From: Dryomyza anilis
Lineage: Eukaryota; Arthropoda; Insecta; Diptera; Dryomyzidae
Direction of reading: 5' to 3'
Assembly (NCBI GenBank): GCA_951804985.1
Contig: OX638131.1
Span: 104,304,464 to 104,368,463 of the forward strand
DNA length: 64,000 bases
Shown one piece after another: positions 8,846 through 64,000 of the stretch. Below the pieces are notes generated by a model that searched no databases, had not been told where the DNA came from, and was given only the letters and a program-made list of their open reading frames with translations. The position numbers and the translations under genes were made by a program. Each line of letters opens with the position of its first letter. Positions within the stretch are counted from its first letter, which is position 1.

Positions 8846-10125
8846 AATATTTACATAATTTTTAATAAAAATTTTAATTTTTAGTAAAATTTCAATTTTT
8901 AATGTTAATTATAGTAAAAATTTTAATTTTTAGTGAAAAATTGAATTTTTAGTGAAAAATTGAATTTTTAGTGAAAATTTGAATTTTTAGTGCAACATTG
9001 AATTTTAAGTGATAAATTGAATTTTTTGGTGAAAAATTAAATTTTTAGTGAAAAATTGAATTCGTAGTGAAAAATTGAATTTTTAGTCAAAAATTTAATT
9101 TGTAGTGAAAAATTGAATTTTTAGTCAAAAATTTAATTTTTAGTGAAAAATTTAATTTTAGTGGAAAATTTAATTTTCAGTTAAAATTTAATTTTTAGTG
9201 AAAAATTGAATTTTTTTTTGAGAAAATTGAACTTTTATTCAAAAACTGAATTTTTATTGAAAAATTGAATTTTTAGTGAAAAATTGAATTTTTATTGAAA
9301 AATTGAATGTTTTAGTAAAATTGAATTTTGTAGAATTTTAGTAGAATTGAATTTTTAGTAAAAAATTGAATTTTTTAGTGAAAAATTTAATTTTTAGTGA
9401 AAAATTGAATTTTTAGTGAAAAATTGAATTTTTAGTGAAAAATTGAACTTTTATTGAAAAATTGAACTTTTAAGTGAAAATTTTAATTTTTAGTGAAAAA
9501 TTGAATTTTTTAGTTAAGAATTGAATTTTTAGTAATAAATTGAATTTTTGGTGAAAAAATTAATTTTTGGTGAAAAATTAAATTTTTGGTGAAAAATTTA
9601 ATTTTTGGTGAAAAATTGAATTTTATTACTGAAAATTTTAATGAATGTTTAGTTAAAAATTGAATTTTTAGTGAAAAATTGAATTCTCAGTTAAAATTTA
9701 ATTTGTAGTGGAAAATTGAATTTTTAGTGAAAAATTGAATTTTTAGTGAAAAATTGAATTTGTTGAGAAAAATATGAATTTCTAATTTAAAATTTAATTT
9801 TTAGATAAAAATTGAAGTTTTATTGAAAAATTTAACTTTTATTACAAATTGAACTTTTAGTGAAAAATTTAATTTTTAGTGAAAAATTTAATTTTTAGTG
9901 AAAAATTAAATTTATTGTGAAAAATTGAATTTTTAATGAAAAATTAAATTTATTGTGAAAAATTGAATTTTTAATGAAAAGATGTATTTTAAGTGAAAAT
10001 TTAATTTTTAGTGAAAATTTGAATTTTTAGTGAAAAATTGAATTTTTAGTGAAAAATTGAATTTTTAGTGAAAAATTTAATTTTTAGTGAAAATTTAAAT
10101 TTTTAGTGAAAAAATTGAATTTATA
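8846..10125 (-). repeat. 19-bp satellite array A4, inverted orientation
   Basis: About 1.28 kb of tandem TTGAATTTTTAGTGAAAAA, the reverse complement of the unit in the arrays at 1.5-6.4 kb. The cleanest runs are near 9220-9480 and 10010-10100. Variants include GTGAAAAATTTAATTTTTA and TTGGTGAAAAA. Its opposite polarity makes the 1.5-10.1 kb interval a large imperfect inverted-repeat arrangement. Confidence 0.95.
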
Positions 10126-21254: not shown

Positions 21255-22235
21255 AAACAAACTCACCACACTAAAACTAACCAAACTAAAACTCACACCA
21301 CTAAAATTCACCACACTAAAACTCACCGCACTAAAATTCACCACACTAAAACTCACCACACTAAAACTCACCACACTAAAACTCACCACACAAAAACTCA
21401 CCACACTAAAACTCACCACACTAAAACTCACCACACAAAAACTCACCACACTAAAACTCACCACACTAAAACTCACCCTTAAATTAACCACACTAAAACC
21501 CACCACACTAACCAAACAAAAACTCAACATTCTAAAACTCACCACACTAAAACTCACCACACTTAAACTCCCACACAAAAATTCAACACACTAAAACTTA
21601 CCACACAAAAACTCTCCACACTAAAACTCACCACACTAAAACTCACCACACTAAAACTTTTCTTACAAAAACTCACCACACTAAAACTCACCACACTAAA
21701 ACTCACCACACTAAAACTCACCACACTTAAACTCACTACACTAAAACTCACCACACTTAAACTCACCACACAAAAATTCAACACACTAAAATTCACCACA
21801 CTAAAACCCACCACACTAAAATTTCACCACACTAAAACTCACAACACTAAAATTCACCACACTAAAACTCACCACACTAAAATTTACCACATTAAAACTT
21901 ACCACACTAAAACTCACCACACTAAAACTCAGCGCACTAAAATTCACCACACTAAAACCCACCACACTATAATTAACCACTCTAAAACTCACCACCCTAA
22001 AATTCACTACACTAAAACTCACCACACTAAAATTTACCACACTCAAATTTACCACACTAAAACTCACCACACTAAAACTCACCACACTAAAACTCACCAC
22101 ACTAAAACTCACCACAATAAAACTCAACACACCAAAACTAACCACAATTAAACTCACCACTCCAAAATTCACCACATCTAAACTCACCACACTGAAACTT
22201 ACTACATTAAAATCCACCACACTAAAACTTCTACT
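21255..22235 (+). repeat. 15-bp minisatellite ACTCACCACACTAAA in Helitron H1
   Basis: About 65 tandem copies of a 15-bp unit, with variants ATTCACCACACTAAA, ACTCACCACACAAAA and ACTTACCACATTAAA. A 15-bp period keeps every frame open, which explains the 80-134-codon Val/Ser- or Thr/His-rich frames on both strands. These are artefacts of the repeat. Diverged pieces of the same unit occur at 27.44-27.75 kb. Confidence 0.95.
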
Positions 22236-39779: not shown

Positions 39780-40085
39780 CAAGGGTTTTTCAACAGAGAC
39801 GCTACAAAAGTAGAGCGACAGGGACAGCAAACGACGTCATATTTCTGGCCGCTCTTTTGAAATTTATCTTCAGTAAGGTTTGCCATTTCATGATGGAAAG
39901 ATATACGAGCCAAAAACGAGTCGAAATTATTAAAATTTACTACCGAAATTCGAATTCGTATATCTTTTCATCATAAAATGGCAAACCTTACTGAAGAGAA
40001 ATGTCAAAAGAGCGGCAAGAAATATGGCGTCGTTTCCTGTCCCCGTCGCTCTACTTTTGAAGCGTCCCTGTTGAAAAACCCCTTA
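39780..40085. mobile_element. Foldback hairpin element, ~128-bp arms
   Basis: The left arm 39780-39907 and right arm 39956-40085 are inverted copies at roughly 90% identity, with a loop of about 48 bp. Matching landmarks are GTTTTTCAACAG, AAAAGTAGAGCGAC, AAACGACG, GCCGCTCTTTTGA, CTTCAGTAAGGTTTGCCATT and AAAGATATACGA. The arms are GC-richer than the flanks. Such near-complete palindromes are typical of foldback MITEs. No target duplication was clear; TTAA follows the right arm and TCAA precedes the left. Confidence 0.8.
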
Positions 40086-42452: not shown

Positions 42453-42797
42453 TTTGAGATTAGAGAATCACCCAAGTGCGTCATTGGAACTTTTATTAGT
42501 AAAATCTCTTCCATTGGGATTAGAGAATCACCCAAGTGCGTCATTGGAACTTTTATCAGTGGAATCTCTTCCATTGGGATTAGAGAATCACCCAAGTGCG
42601 TCATTGGAACTTTTATTGGACGAATCTCTTCCTTTGGGATTAGAGAATCACCCAAGTGCGTCATTGGAACTTTTATTGGACGAATCTCTTCCATTGGGAT
42701 TAGAGAATCACCCAAGTGCATCATTGGAACTTTTATTGGATGAATCTCTTCCATTGGGATTAGAAAATCACCCAAGTGCGTCATTGAAACTTTTATT
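42453..42797 (+). repeat. 60-bp minisatellite, 5-6 copies
   Basis: Units of exactly 60 bp, nearly identical. Each contains TTGGGATTAGAGAATCACCC, AAGTGCGTCATTGG, AACTTTTATTGGACGAATC and CTCTTCCA. Sixty is a multiple of three, so frames stay open on both strands (plus: repeating Glu-Asn-His-Pro-Ser-Ala-Ser-Leu-Glu; minus: repeating Met-Thr-His-Leu-Gly-Asp). These frames are read straight out of the repeat and begin in T-rich DNA. A clearly related 60-bp unit forms the centre of the hAT element at 61.1-62.7 kb. Confidence 0.95.
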
Positions 42798-48053: not shown

Positions 48054-49340
48054 AGGACTGCGTCGAATAAAATTGTCCGTTACATATCTTCCCATAATGT
48101 GCTATTGCAAGATTCAAATTAAAAAAATTTGATCATAGTAGCTCTGAATTAAATGGCAGAAAAAAATTTGTGTCAGTTATAGTCAATACAAAATTTATTT
48201 AACGCGAAAATGGCAAACGAAGTGGAAGTGCGAGAAAATATAATTAAAATTTTTCAAAAAAAACCTAGTTGGTCTTTTAAAAAAATTGTCAAAGAGGTAG
48301 GGGCTAACCCTAAGACCATTTCTCGCGTTATCAACCGCTTTAAGGAAGACCTGAGTATTGATCGGAAGAAAGGTTCTGGTAAAAAAAGGCCCACATGATC
48401 GTGAAAAGTCGAAGAAGATTGTGAATATTTTAAAGAAAGATCCAAGCATATCCGGAAGGAAATTGGCGAGAAAGGCGGATTGCTCAGAATCTTTCGTGCG
48501 CAGGACTAAGAAAGAAGCTGGGCTAAAGATGTACAAGGTCCAAAAAGTTCCGGATAGAAATGCCGTCAATAATGAAACCGCAAAACAACGAGCTAAAAAG
48601 CTGAACCAAGATTTTTTTAAAAAATTCGATTGCTACATAATGGACGACGAAACTTATGTTTTAGCGGACTTTTCTCTGCTACCTGGGCAGGAATTTTATA
48701 CAGCTGATTCTAGAGGAAATGTCGCTGAAAAATTCAAATAAAAAAAATTACAAAATTCCCAAAGAAATTCCTTGTTTGGCAGGCAATTGCAGTTGTGGAA
48801 AAAGGAGCAGCTCATTCGTGACATCGGGTACAATTAATAGCGAAATATATGTGAAGGAATGCTTGCAAAAGAGATTGCTTCCATTTTTACGCCAACATGA
48901 AGTGTCCACATTTTTTTTTGGCATGACCACGCTTCAGCAAAACGGCCTTAGAGTGGATACAACAAAATGCATTGATTTTGGTGCCTAGAGAAGCCAATCC
49001 ACCAAACTGTCCAGAACTCAGGCCGATTGAGAGATACTGGGCTTTAGTAAAAAGGGAGATGAAGACAACAAAAAAAGTGGCCAAAGACTTTCAAGACTTT
49101 AAAAGAAAGTGGTCTTCAGCAGCTGTGAGGGTGTCGGACACTACCATTACAACATTAATGGAAGGGGTTCCGGAAAAATTAAAACTTTTTATTAAAAAAT
49201 ATTAATTTCTGTTTTTTTATATTTTTTTTTAAATCTAAAAATAATTTGCAAAATAAAATATTTTATTCTATAATAATTCGATTACTAGATTTCTATATTT
49301 TTTCATTTTTGTAGCGGACAATTTTATTCGACGCAGTTCT
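48054..49340 (+). mobile_element. Tc1/mariner-superfamily element, 1287 bp
   Basis: The 31-bp terminal inverted repeats differ at two positions. The left starts AGGACTGCGTCGAATAAAAT; the right, on the other strand, starts AGAACTGCGTCGAATAAAAT; both run on through TGTCCG. A TA dinucleotide lies on each side (48052-48053 and 49341-49342), as expected for this superfamily. Length and a single central transposase are typical. The termini look intact while the transposase is broken, so this copy could be moved only in trans. Confidence 0.93.
48210..49205 (+). pseudogene. Tc1/mariner transposase, frameshifted
   Basis: Starts at ATG 48210. The first frame (to 48398) encodes a helix-turn-helix (SWSFKKIVKEVGANPKTIS). 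A second frame (about 48381-48738) has GPHDR, a second helix-turn-helix (ISGRKLARKADCSESFVRR) and the first catalytic block MDDETYVLADF (Asp at 48643-48648). A third frame covers KFPKKFLVWQAI (about 48745-48785). The next gives CSCGKRSSSFVTSGTINSEI (about 48790-48850), then WHDHAS (second Asp codon 48925-48927). The last frame, to 49205, carries NPPNCPELRPIERYW, with the catalytic Glu at 49029-49031. About five frameshifts are needed, most in A- or T-runs. The nucleotide distance from second Asp to Glu fits DD34E after a 1-nt loss or DD37E after a 10-nt loss. The latter agrees better with the shortened ASAK segment (inference). Confidence 0.92.
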
Positions 49341-61104: not shown

Positions 61105-61112
61105 ATTCAAAC

Positions 61113-62658
61113 CAGAGACGGGACTAATTCATTATTTTTCAAATTAAATTTGTTCATGAATTGAAATTGCTTTCAAATAATTTCATTTCTATTTATTTAA
61201 ATGGCATTTGAAAAAAGTATTTCAATTCGAAAAATATTTCATTTGAATTGAGTAAACAAATTCCAATTCAAAAAAATTTGAAGTGAAATACTTTTATTCA
61301 ATTCAAATTTTTGAAATTGGCATTGATCAATTTCAATTCAACAAACATGAATTGGAATTGATCAATTCTATTTAAAATACAAAAGCATTGATATTGAAGT
61401 GGCACGCACCACATTTTGGCTTGAATGTATTTCAATGGCACAGAATTGCATCCAGATGCATCATGGGATATTTTTCGGTAAATCTGTTGCACCCGGGGCC
61501 AGCATATTTGAATCTGTTTTAAGGGGCATAGATACGCATCTAGTTGGATCATTCGAAATTTTTGGTTGAATATATACCAATTAGCACAAATTCTTTGGCC
61601 AAAACCCACTGCGCACTTTTTTTTGGAACATTGGTTCCATTGGGATTTGGCCAGAACCCAAGTGCGTCATTGGGCATTTTTTTGGACAAATTAGTTCCAT
61701 TGGGAATTGGCCAGAACCCAACTGCGTCATTGGACATTTTTTTGGACAAATAGGTTCCATTCGGATTTGGCCAGAATCCGCTTGCGTTATTGGACATTTT
61801 TTTGGAACAATTGGACGCAGTTGGGTTCTGCCCAAATCCCAATGGAACTAATTTGTCCAAAAAAATTCCCAATGACGCAGTTGGGTTCTGGCCAATTCCC
61901 AATGGAACTAATTTGTCCAAAAAAATGCCCAATGACGCAGTAGGGTTCTGGCCAAATCCCAATGGAACCTATTTGTCCAAAAAAGTTCCAATTACGCACT
62001 TGTGTGCTTCTGTAATCTCACTGGAACAGATCCATCCAAAAAAGTTCCAATGACGCACTTGTGTGCTTCTGTAATCCCACTGGGACAGATTCATCCACAA
62101 ATGTTTCAATGACGCACTTGGCTGTGAATCTATGCCCATTGGAACAGACGCACATAAAATTCCAATGTCGTACTTGAATGTAATCTCTGTCCATTTGAAC
62201 AGATGCACCCAAAAACTTCCAATGACGCATCAGGATGTGAAACTGTGTACATTGTAACAATTTCAACCAAAAATGTCCAATGATGCATCGGAGTGCGAAT
62301 TTCACATGGAAATTATCACCACTTGAACTTTTACTGCAGGGAGCTCTGCTAAAACTAAAATTAATTCAAATAAATTCAATTCAATTCAAATCAATTCAAT
62401 TCATAAATTTTTTGATGGCATTGAGTATTTCTAAGCAATAAGTTGAATTGAGTATTTATAATTCAATTTTTTTTAATTTGAAATACTTTGTTTAATTTAT
62501 TTCAAAACAAATTTGAATTGAAATAAAATTTCAAATTTATTTATATTTTTTTTGAAGTGAATTACTTTGCTTCAATTCTAATTTTTTATTTTTGAAATAG
62601 AATTTGTTTTGCTCAATTCAATTCAAAATCAATTCTCAATTACAAAGTCCCGTCTCTG
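61113..62658. mobile_element. hAT-type element (1546 bp) with palindromic minisatellite core
   Basis: The ends CAGAGACGGGACTAATTC and, on the other strand at 62658, CAGAGACGGGACTTTG share 13 terminal bases. A perfect 8-bp duplication ATTCAAAC flanks the element (61105-61112 and 62659-62666). CAGAG ends and an 8-bp duplication are typical of hAT. Subterminal zones (61130-61390 and 62340-62640) are rich in CAATTCAA/TTGAATTG. The core is a head-to-head array of 60-bp units (listed separately). No transposase, so nonautonomous. The layout resembles Drosophila foldback elements, whose long inverted repeats are built of short tandem repeats. Confidence 0.92.
61405..62310. repeat. Palindromic 60-bp minisatellite inside the hAT element
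   Basis: Plus-oriented units end near 61811. The three at about 61632-61811 are nearly identical, containing TTCCATTGGGATTTGGCCAG, AACCCAAGTGCGTCATTGG and TTTTTTTGGACAAATTAG. Minus-oriented units start there: three close copies (61812-61990), then five increasingly diverged ones to about 62305. Outer plus units (61405-61630) are also degraded. Units keep a ~60-bp period, so many frames of 69-137 codons appear on both strands; they are artefacts. Confidence 0.93.
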
Positions 62659-62666
62659 ATTCAAAC

Positions 62667-62808: not shown

Positions 62809-64000
62809 AATAAATTAATAAATTAATAAATTAATAAATTAATAAATTAATAAATTAATAAATTAATAAATTAATAAATTAATAAATTAATAAATTAATA
62901 AATTAATAAATTAATAAATTAATAAATTAATAAATTAATAAATTAATAAATTAATAAATTAATAAATTAATAAATTAATAAATTAATAAATTAATAAATT
63001 AATAAATTAATAAATTAATAAATTAATAAATTAATAAATTAATAAATTAATAAATTAATAAATTAATAAATTAATAAATTAATAAATTAATAAATTAATA
63101 AATTAATAAATTAATAAATTAATAAATTAATAAATTAATAAATTAATAAATTAATAAATTAATAAATTAATAAATTAATAAATTAATAAATTAATAAATT
63201 AATAAATTAATAAATTAATAAATTAATAAATTAATAAATTAATAAATTAATAAATTAATAAATTAATAAATTAATAAATTAATAAATTAATAAATTAATA
63301 AATTAATAAATTAATAAATTAATAAATTAATAAATTAATAAATTAATAAATTAATAAATTAATAAATTAATAAATTAATAAATTAATAAATTAATAAATT
63401 AATAAATTAATAAATTAATAAATTAATAAATTAATAAATTAATAAATTAATAAATTAATAAATTAATAAATTAATAAATTAATAAATTAATAAATTAATA
63501 AATTAATAAATTAATAAATTAATAAATTAATAAATTAATAAATTAATAAATTAATAAATTAATAAATTAATAAATTAATAAATTAATAAATTAATAAATT
63601 AATAAATTAATAAATTAATAAATTAATAAATTAATAAATTAATAAATTAATAAATTAATAAATTAATAAATTAATAAATTAATAAATTAATAAATTAATA
63701 AATTAATAAATTAATAAATTAATAAATTAATAAATTAATAAATTAATAAATTAATAAATTAATAAATTAATAAATTAATAAATTAATAAATTAATAAATT
63801 AATAAATTAATAAATTAATAAATTAATAAATTAATAAATTAATAAATTAATAAATTAATAAATTAATAAATTAATAAATTAATAAATTAATAAATTAATA
63901 AATTAATAAATTAATAAATTAATAAATTAATAAATTAATAAATTAATAAATTAATAAATTAATAAATTAATAAATTAATAAATTAATAAATTAATAAATT
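62809..64000. repeat. Perfect octanucleotide array (AATAAATT)149, runs off the window
   Basis: 1192 bp, exactly 149 units with no variant seen, continuing past the window edge. Its true length is unknown. The lack of any substitution implies very recent expansion or conversion, or an assembly that overlays identical copies. Confidence 0.97.

Follow-up and report, generated by a model that had tools for sequence, protein, structure and literature searches.

A young hAT transposon family with head-to-head 60-bp repeat arrays in Dryomyza anilis

The window analysed here is a 64,000-nucleotide stretch of the 656.6-Mb, 69-contig genome assembly of the fly Dryomyza anilis. Near one end of the window is a 1,546-bp element (61113-62658) bounded by perfect 13-bp inverted ends, CAGAGACGGGACT on the left (61113-61125, plus strand; the exact 13-mer later counted across the genome) and AGTCCCGTCTCTG on the right (62646-62658, minus strand). 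The element is flanked on the left (61105-61112) and on the right (62659-62666) by an exact 8-bp target site duplication, ATTCAAAC. Units of 60 bp run on the plus strand up to 61812 and on the minus strand beyond. An initial annotation had described hAT-like ends, an exact 8-bp duplication and a switch from plus to minus units near 61811, and all of these features are confirmed, with the switch falling after base 61812. A comparison of the window with Rfam at the gathering threshold gave no match.

Inward from the left end, a largely AT-rich subterminal region carrying TTCAATTC-type repeats (61126-61432) leads to two degenerate plus-strand units. The outermost, X1 (61433-61489), is nearest to right-arm unit A (z 8.8), and X2 (61521-61578) is nearest to right-arm unit B (z 6.9, with 6.6 for A and 6.1 for E). 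These are followed on the plus strand by an outer left unit at the type G position, which is 50 nt long in the window copy (61588-61637), by two left-class (L) units of types C and F (61638-61757), and by the central unit M (61758-61812). The minus strand opens with left-class units adjacent to the centre (61813-61964), one partial (61813-61844) and two full, and continues through the fused unit J (61965-62023) and the right-arm units H, B, D, A and E (62024-62308) to an AT-rich right subterminal region (62317-62645). The possibility that the two subterminal regions represent one long ancestral inverted repeat was not adopted: the inverted comparison scores 60, above all 300 shuffles (maximum 48), but the direct comparison reaches 56.

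The inverted arms at 61618-61787 and 61815-61984 show 90% complementarity across a 27 nt spacer. When folded as single-stranded DNA, the window array has a predicted energy of -177.6 kcal/mol, compared to a mean of -50.5 (sd 4.0, n=100) for shuffled sequences. With its long inverted arms made of tandem repeats and able to fold back, the element joins the foldback-like elements, which form a structural class and not a clade.

Other repeats are found in the same window. About 150 bp past the element, the octamer AATAAATT is repeated in 149 copies with 100% matches (62809-64000), up to the end of the window. Several 19-bp AT-rich minisatellite arrays with related units (ACTAAAAATTCAATTTTTC and its complement) are located at 1405-2837, at 8912-10122 and elsewhere. 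T-rich DNA at 42454-42797 contains 5.7 copies of a 60-bp unit related to that of the element, with 94% matches. Just one match to the 13-bp end lies closer to this array than the window element does; it is at 39794 and has 3 mismatches, which is chance level. The array is either a remnant or an independent minisatellite. There is also a 128-aa open frame at 48355-48741, which by eye looks similar to part of a Tc1/mariner-type transposase.

The window element belongs to a young hAT transposon family. It has many copies in the genome, and the array lies inside the duplications in all 36 complete ones. These are the window copy plus 35 of 38 further loci, namely those whose paired ends are bordered by identical 8-bp duplications. 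The 38 were the loci that matched the window copy best and are not a random sample. Three loci (L020, L021 and L026) that lack an end pair with matching duplication were left out of the counts, as were L001-L008, which duplicate the window and loci L009-L015. Both ends are exact in 31 of the 36 copies, and the other five have one mismatch in one end. Across the genome, the exact 13-bp end occurs 134+138 times, against 0+2 for the reversed control, and 22-mer ends with at most one mismatch occur 148 (left) and 150 (right) times, against 0 for the controls. The list of exact ends as far as C6:44.6 Mb contains 91 left ends and 100 right ends. Pairing them yields 64 elements of 908-8,254 bp with a median of 2,032, and 27 left and 36 right ends find no partner. 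At C3:42979878-43005446, five right family ends are spaced about 5.4-6.7 kb apart with one listed left end, apparently because the element was amplified in tandem there along with its surroundings.

All 36 complete copies carry the plus-then-minus array if weak, partial unit calls within the subterminal regions are set aside, and in every one the right arm ends outward in B, D, A and E. The number of inner units varies, such that the arms range from 1.5 to 24 plus units and from 7.4 to 19.6 minus units, and the 36 copies comprise 33 distinct array sequences and 31 distinct unit-type strings. The terminal 300+230 bp nonetheless have a mean identity of 99.2% (minimum 98.1%, gaps not counted). 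Five copies (L017, L024, L031, L038 and L041) are identical over their terminal 530 bp, yet possess 4-12 plus and 8.4-19.6 minus units. Of the 36 duplications, 24 have T at position 2 and 29 have A at position 7, a frequency of 0.74 with both strands pooled. These raw counts, from an AT-rich host, resemble the Hermes pattern nTnnnnAn (PMC10368747).

A copy bearing a transposase gene, L077, was found through the spacing of the family ends. Starting from transposases was unproductive, in that 30 loci matching Pfam hAT transposases (L047-L076, from 150 of 495 candidates scored) showed no end pair at 3 or fewer mismatches within flanks of about 1.5 kb. L077 spans 6,556 bp (C1:24036228-24042783), has window-type ends and is flanked by the 8-bp duplication CTATAAAC. 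Compared with the 36 copies, it is on average 99.2% identical over the left 300 bp and 99.4% over the right 230 bp, gaps not counted. In the orientation of the window element, it consists of left units, M, three minus units, a minus-strand transposase gene and a right array. The three minus units after M have a left-class look, with the two nearer the gene diverged. The right array, in unit names assigned by eye, begins with a 35-nt partial unit and continues with V, P, Q, H, N, O, m, H, A and E; units B and D are absent from it. L077 is the one transposase-bearing copy that was read whole. Other genomic matches to the main exon are found on C3 (99%), at C1:75371591 (69%, with stops) and on C6 (80%, partial, with stops). 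The C3 match is accompanied by an exact left end on the side where one is expected, but the listed exact ends include no right one for it. The match at C1:75371591 is accompanied by an exact right end and by a unit of the left class, each on its expected side.

The gene in L077 has five exons with GT-AG introns that join in frame to encode 533 aa. The best homologue of this protein has an E value of 1.2e-123, and the named homologues among the best 120 listed are mostly from insects, including some labelled as 'HAT C-terminal dimerisation domain-containing'. A profile built from 23 family sequences matches Hermes structures (E 5.8e-16), whereas a search of solved structures with the L077 transposase as a single sequence gave no match, Hermes included. 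An upstream exon encodes a BED finger (L077:1866-1994) that scores 25.0 bits against a Pfam cut-off of 20.6. No Pfam hAT domain reaches its cut-off in this transposase. The dimerisation domain falls below its cut-off for the last exon (12.3 versus 21.4 bits) and is absent from the matches listed for the 533-aa protein, and four of the 23 aligned family members match it at E 0.01 or better. Given the profile match to Hermes, this shortfall probably reflects limited sensitivity and not the failure of a defining trait. L077 itself is broken, since the BED exon is followed by an in-frame stop and an insertion of about 1.5 kb. The insertion carries a 15-bp repeat, AAACTCACCACACTA (about L077:2190-3290), that recurs in the window at 21259-22229 beside a 288-bp tandem repeat; the sequence bearing it looks like a separate mobile element, presumably Helitron-like. 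The family combines 8-bp duplications, an nTnnnnAn-like pattern, a hAT-type transposase between the same ends and a BED finger. The view of the window element as a foldback-like palindrome with hAT ends, first taken from the window alone, is now backed by a transposase-bearing copy and by the Hermes match.

Comparison of the arms reveals how the gene-less copies are put together. Left-class and right-class units can be told apart by 8 diagnostic sites, and by this measure the left arm and the centre are left-class in all 36 short copies. The minus arm shows a single switch from left to right class in every copy once the outermost units A and E are set aside; these two read mixed at the diagnostic sites, with E left-class in L014, L022 and L046. 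Stray diagnostic sites also occur in other units of L015, L017, L035, L036, L038, L040 and L043. In 32 copies the switch is located within a unit, and these units are 58-61 nt long and represent 15 distinct sequences. In the other four (L032, L039, L042 and L046) it falls between units, where register is not readable, and the broken units of L046 lie one step farther out than its class switch. The window unit J illustrates such a joint. Its 48 nt at 61976-62023 are identical to right-arm unit m of L077 and its 20 nt at 61965-61984 are identical to a left-arm unit, the two matches overlapping in the patch TTTTTTGGA (61976-61984).

Because minus units of both classes flank the gene of L077, the short copies are most simply viewed as internal deletions joined via repeat homology, and such repeat-guided deletions probably arose more than once. 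The number of independent fusions is uncertain, since L077 and the left arms yielded no exact parents for several of the other fused units, and exchange between copies could spread or remake such units. We infer that the gene-bearing form came first, although events may have run in the reverse order, with a gene-less palindrome later acquiring a gene.

The initial annotation had also described a symmetric gradient in which units diverge progressively outward from the centre. This pattern is strong on the right arm and weak on the left. From the centre outward, the full units of the window copy differ from the core by 12 (the central unit), 1, 4 and 18 edits on the left, and by 5, 4, 13, 16, 21, 27, 24 and 21 edits on the right. 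The rank of each unit from the centre was compared with its mean divergence from the other units of the same copy by Spearman correlation, leaving out X1 (61433-61489) and X2 (61521-61578), which lie outside the called array. On the right arm, the mean correlation is 0.72 and exceeds 0.5 in 32 of 36 copies. For left arms with at least four units, it is 0.24 and exceeds 0.5 in five of 31, and removal of the central and outermost units changes these values only to 0.29 and seven of 24. The rise on the right arm is largely the switch between the two unit classes, which in L077 flank the transposase gene on opposite sides. The resemblance of X1 to A and, more weakly, of X2 to B suggests an old mirror symmetry between the outer units of the two arms.

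We consider it quite likely that the window element is a non-autonomous hAT member that lost its gene, had its arms fused in register and was moved in trans, and whose arrays continue to be remodelled. The ancestral gene-bearing form would have comprised an end, a plus left array, M, a few minus left-class units, a minus-strand gene, a minus right array and the other end. In the gene-less window form, a minus left-class unit would have been joined in 60-bp register to a right-arm unit at a short common patch, uniting both arms in one head-to-head palindrome. These fusions may be deletions that arose through template switching or single-strand annealing while the gap left by excision was repaired. 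Transposase supplied in trans would then mobilise the gene-less element and create the 8-bp duplications. Duplication or loss of several units at once within an arm would alter the arrays far faster than the ends change, and recombination between the inverted arms, presumably by inversion, would produce flipped centres.

A different origin, put forward in the initial annotation, is growth from the palindrome centre, whereby hairpin-primed repair or replication adds units at the tip and the innermost units are the youngest. The near identity of the inner units, common to both arms, speaks for such growth, as does the ability of the centre to fold. In addition, of 112 left-class units of the minus arm, 68 are closest to a unit of the plus arm, 32 to one of their own arm and 12 are tied, a count biased by the plus arm often being richer in such units. 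However, in the window copy M has diverged further than the units beside it, and its junction persists in 32 of 36 copies (at most 2 substitutions; forward in 23, flipped in nine, not found in four). Flipped centres can be claimed by tip growth, but they are also expected if inverted arms recombine. Sharing of units was compared in 75 pairs of unequal plus-arm length, drawn from 13 copies whose joints are of one kind. Within 3 edits, pairs share a mean of 3.1 units on the centre side and 1.8 on the outer side, and within 2 edits these means are 1.6 and 1.2, whereas 17% of random interior unit pairs lie within 2 edits by chance. At the stricter threshold, 40 of the 75 pairs share no centre-side unit, as growth at the tip would predict, partly because the central unit has two variants. 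Finally, an exact-repeat scan of 10 of the 36 copies found the longest exact direct repeats in the interior of the plus arm in five (L018, L019, L011, L022 and L041). These repeats are up to 252 bp and several units long, with offsets near whole numbers of units (3, 4, 9 and 10 units in L018). These data are better explained by unequal exchange or slippage within the arms than by growth at the tip, which lacks support in the 13-copy subgroup, the best resolved, and which we judge unlikely.

We regard it as very unlikely that the element captured an existing genomic 60-bp minisatellite and that its inverted layout is secondary. The related array at window 42454-42797, which lacks the 13-bp ends, is compatible with such a source. 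The old outer types, however, seem to be mirrored between the arms (X1 with A and, weakly, X2 with B), and the places listed for the core unit (40 of 312 candidates scored) include known family copies and several places with units in two orientations. Long near-perfect palindromes and arrays are in general hard to assemble, and an assembly artefact could be suspected on that basis. This is highly improbable given the exact target duplications in 36 of 36 copies and the identical arrays that recur at different sites with different duplications (L027, L028 and L029; L044 and L045).

The best conserved stretch among nine divergent, hand-chosen unit types is TGCGTCATTG (0.86 versus 0.56, permutation p 0.012), which is only suggestive of a conserved core. 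The arm repeats of Galileo contain sites for the THAP domain of its transposase (PMC3688188), and short subterminal repeats are bound by the BED finger of Hermes (PMC10368747). By analogy, the 60-bp units may be candidate binding sites for the BED finger of the family's transposase. It is possible, although doubtful, that the arrays are BED-site arrays with TGCGTCATTG as core that are required near the ends, and that the 60-bp register steers repair so that each gene loss founds a new mobile palindromic subfamily. If so, one parent would repeatedly yield non-autonomous lineages by in-register fusions while its ends stay constant.

Foldback elements are often known without a transposase, and Mutator-type elements make duplications of about 9 bp. 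A Mutator-type foldback was ruled out here by the 8-bp duplications in all 36 copies and the hAT transposase, and membership in the P superfamily with Galileo was ruled out because the transposase is hAT and not P-type. Two further elements taken into account were FB of Drosophila and TU of sea urchin. The closest counterpart found is gadMor-hAT-1784 of Atlantic cod, likewise described as a gene-less hAT-type element with two long (~600 bp) inverted tandem-repeat arms and reported at inversion breakpoints (PMC12368964). A hAT with such arms is thus already known, although the initial annotation did not recognise the architecture as that of a named family. The cod units are 167-169 bp, and no open reading frame is identified in that element (PMC12368964). 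In the D. anilis family the units are 60 bp, one form bears a transposase between the same ends, and joints between arm classes are present. Among the matches listed in a mostly open-access literature search, the cod element was the only other hAT foldback recognised.

Galileo, of the P superfamily, also has long foldback-like inverted arms, arm remodelling and gene-less copies, and some of its copies contain tandem repeats in the arms. Its duplications are 7 or 8 bp against 8 here, and its transposase is P-type with a THAP domain rather than hAT with a BED finger (PMC4168063, PMC3688188). Tetris of Drosophila virilis is another foldback with tandem repeats (TIR-220) in its arms and within-arm changes in repeat number, proposed by its authors as Mutator-type. 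It is reported to have 8-10 bp duplications and 220-bp units with no transposase found, and the same paper states that Mutator seems to account for most foldbacks (PMC4079207). The present family has 8-bp duplications, 60-bp units and a hAT transposase. Hermes resembles the present family in its hAT transposase with a BED finger, its subterminal repeats and its 8-bp nTnnnnAn duplications, but it has two dissimilar ends of ~450 bp, and the accessible text mentions no such arrays (PMC10368747). Its transposase is distant from that of L077, being matched by the profile and not by the single sequence. As far as the literature was searched, three features of the D. anilis family are new: a hAT foldback in its gene-bearing form, joints that keep the 60-bp register, and arrays that vary extremely although the ends are nearly identical. 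In this one genome the gene-bearing form of a hAT family occurs together with palindromes that lack the gene and with several different joints between the arm classes. The near-identical ends, enclosing 31 unit-type strings in 36 copies, offer a natural series in which the formation and change of palindromic arrays can be tested.
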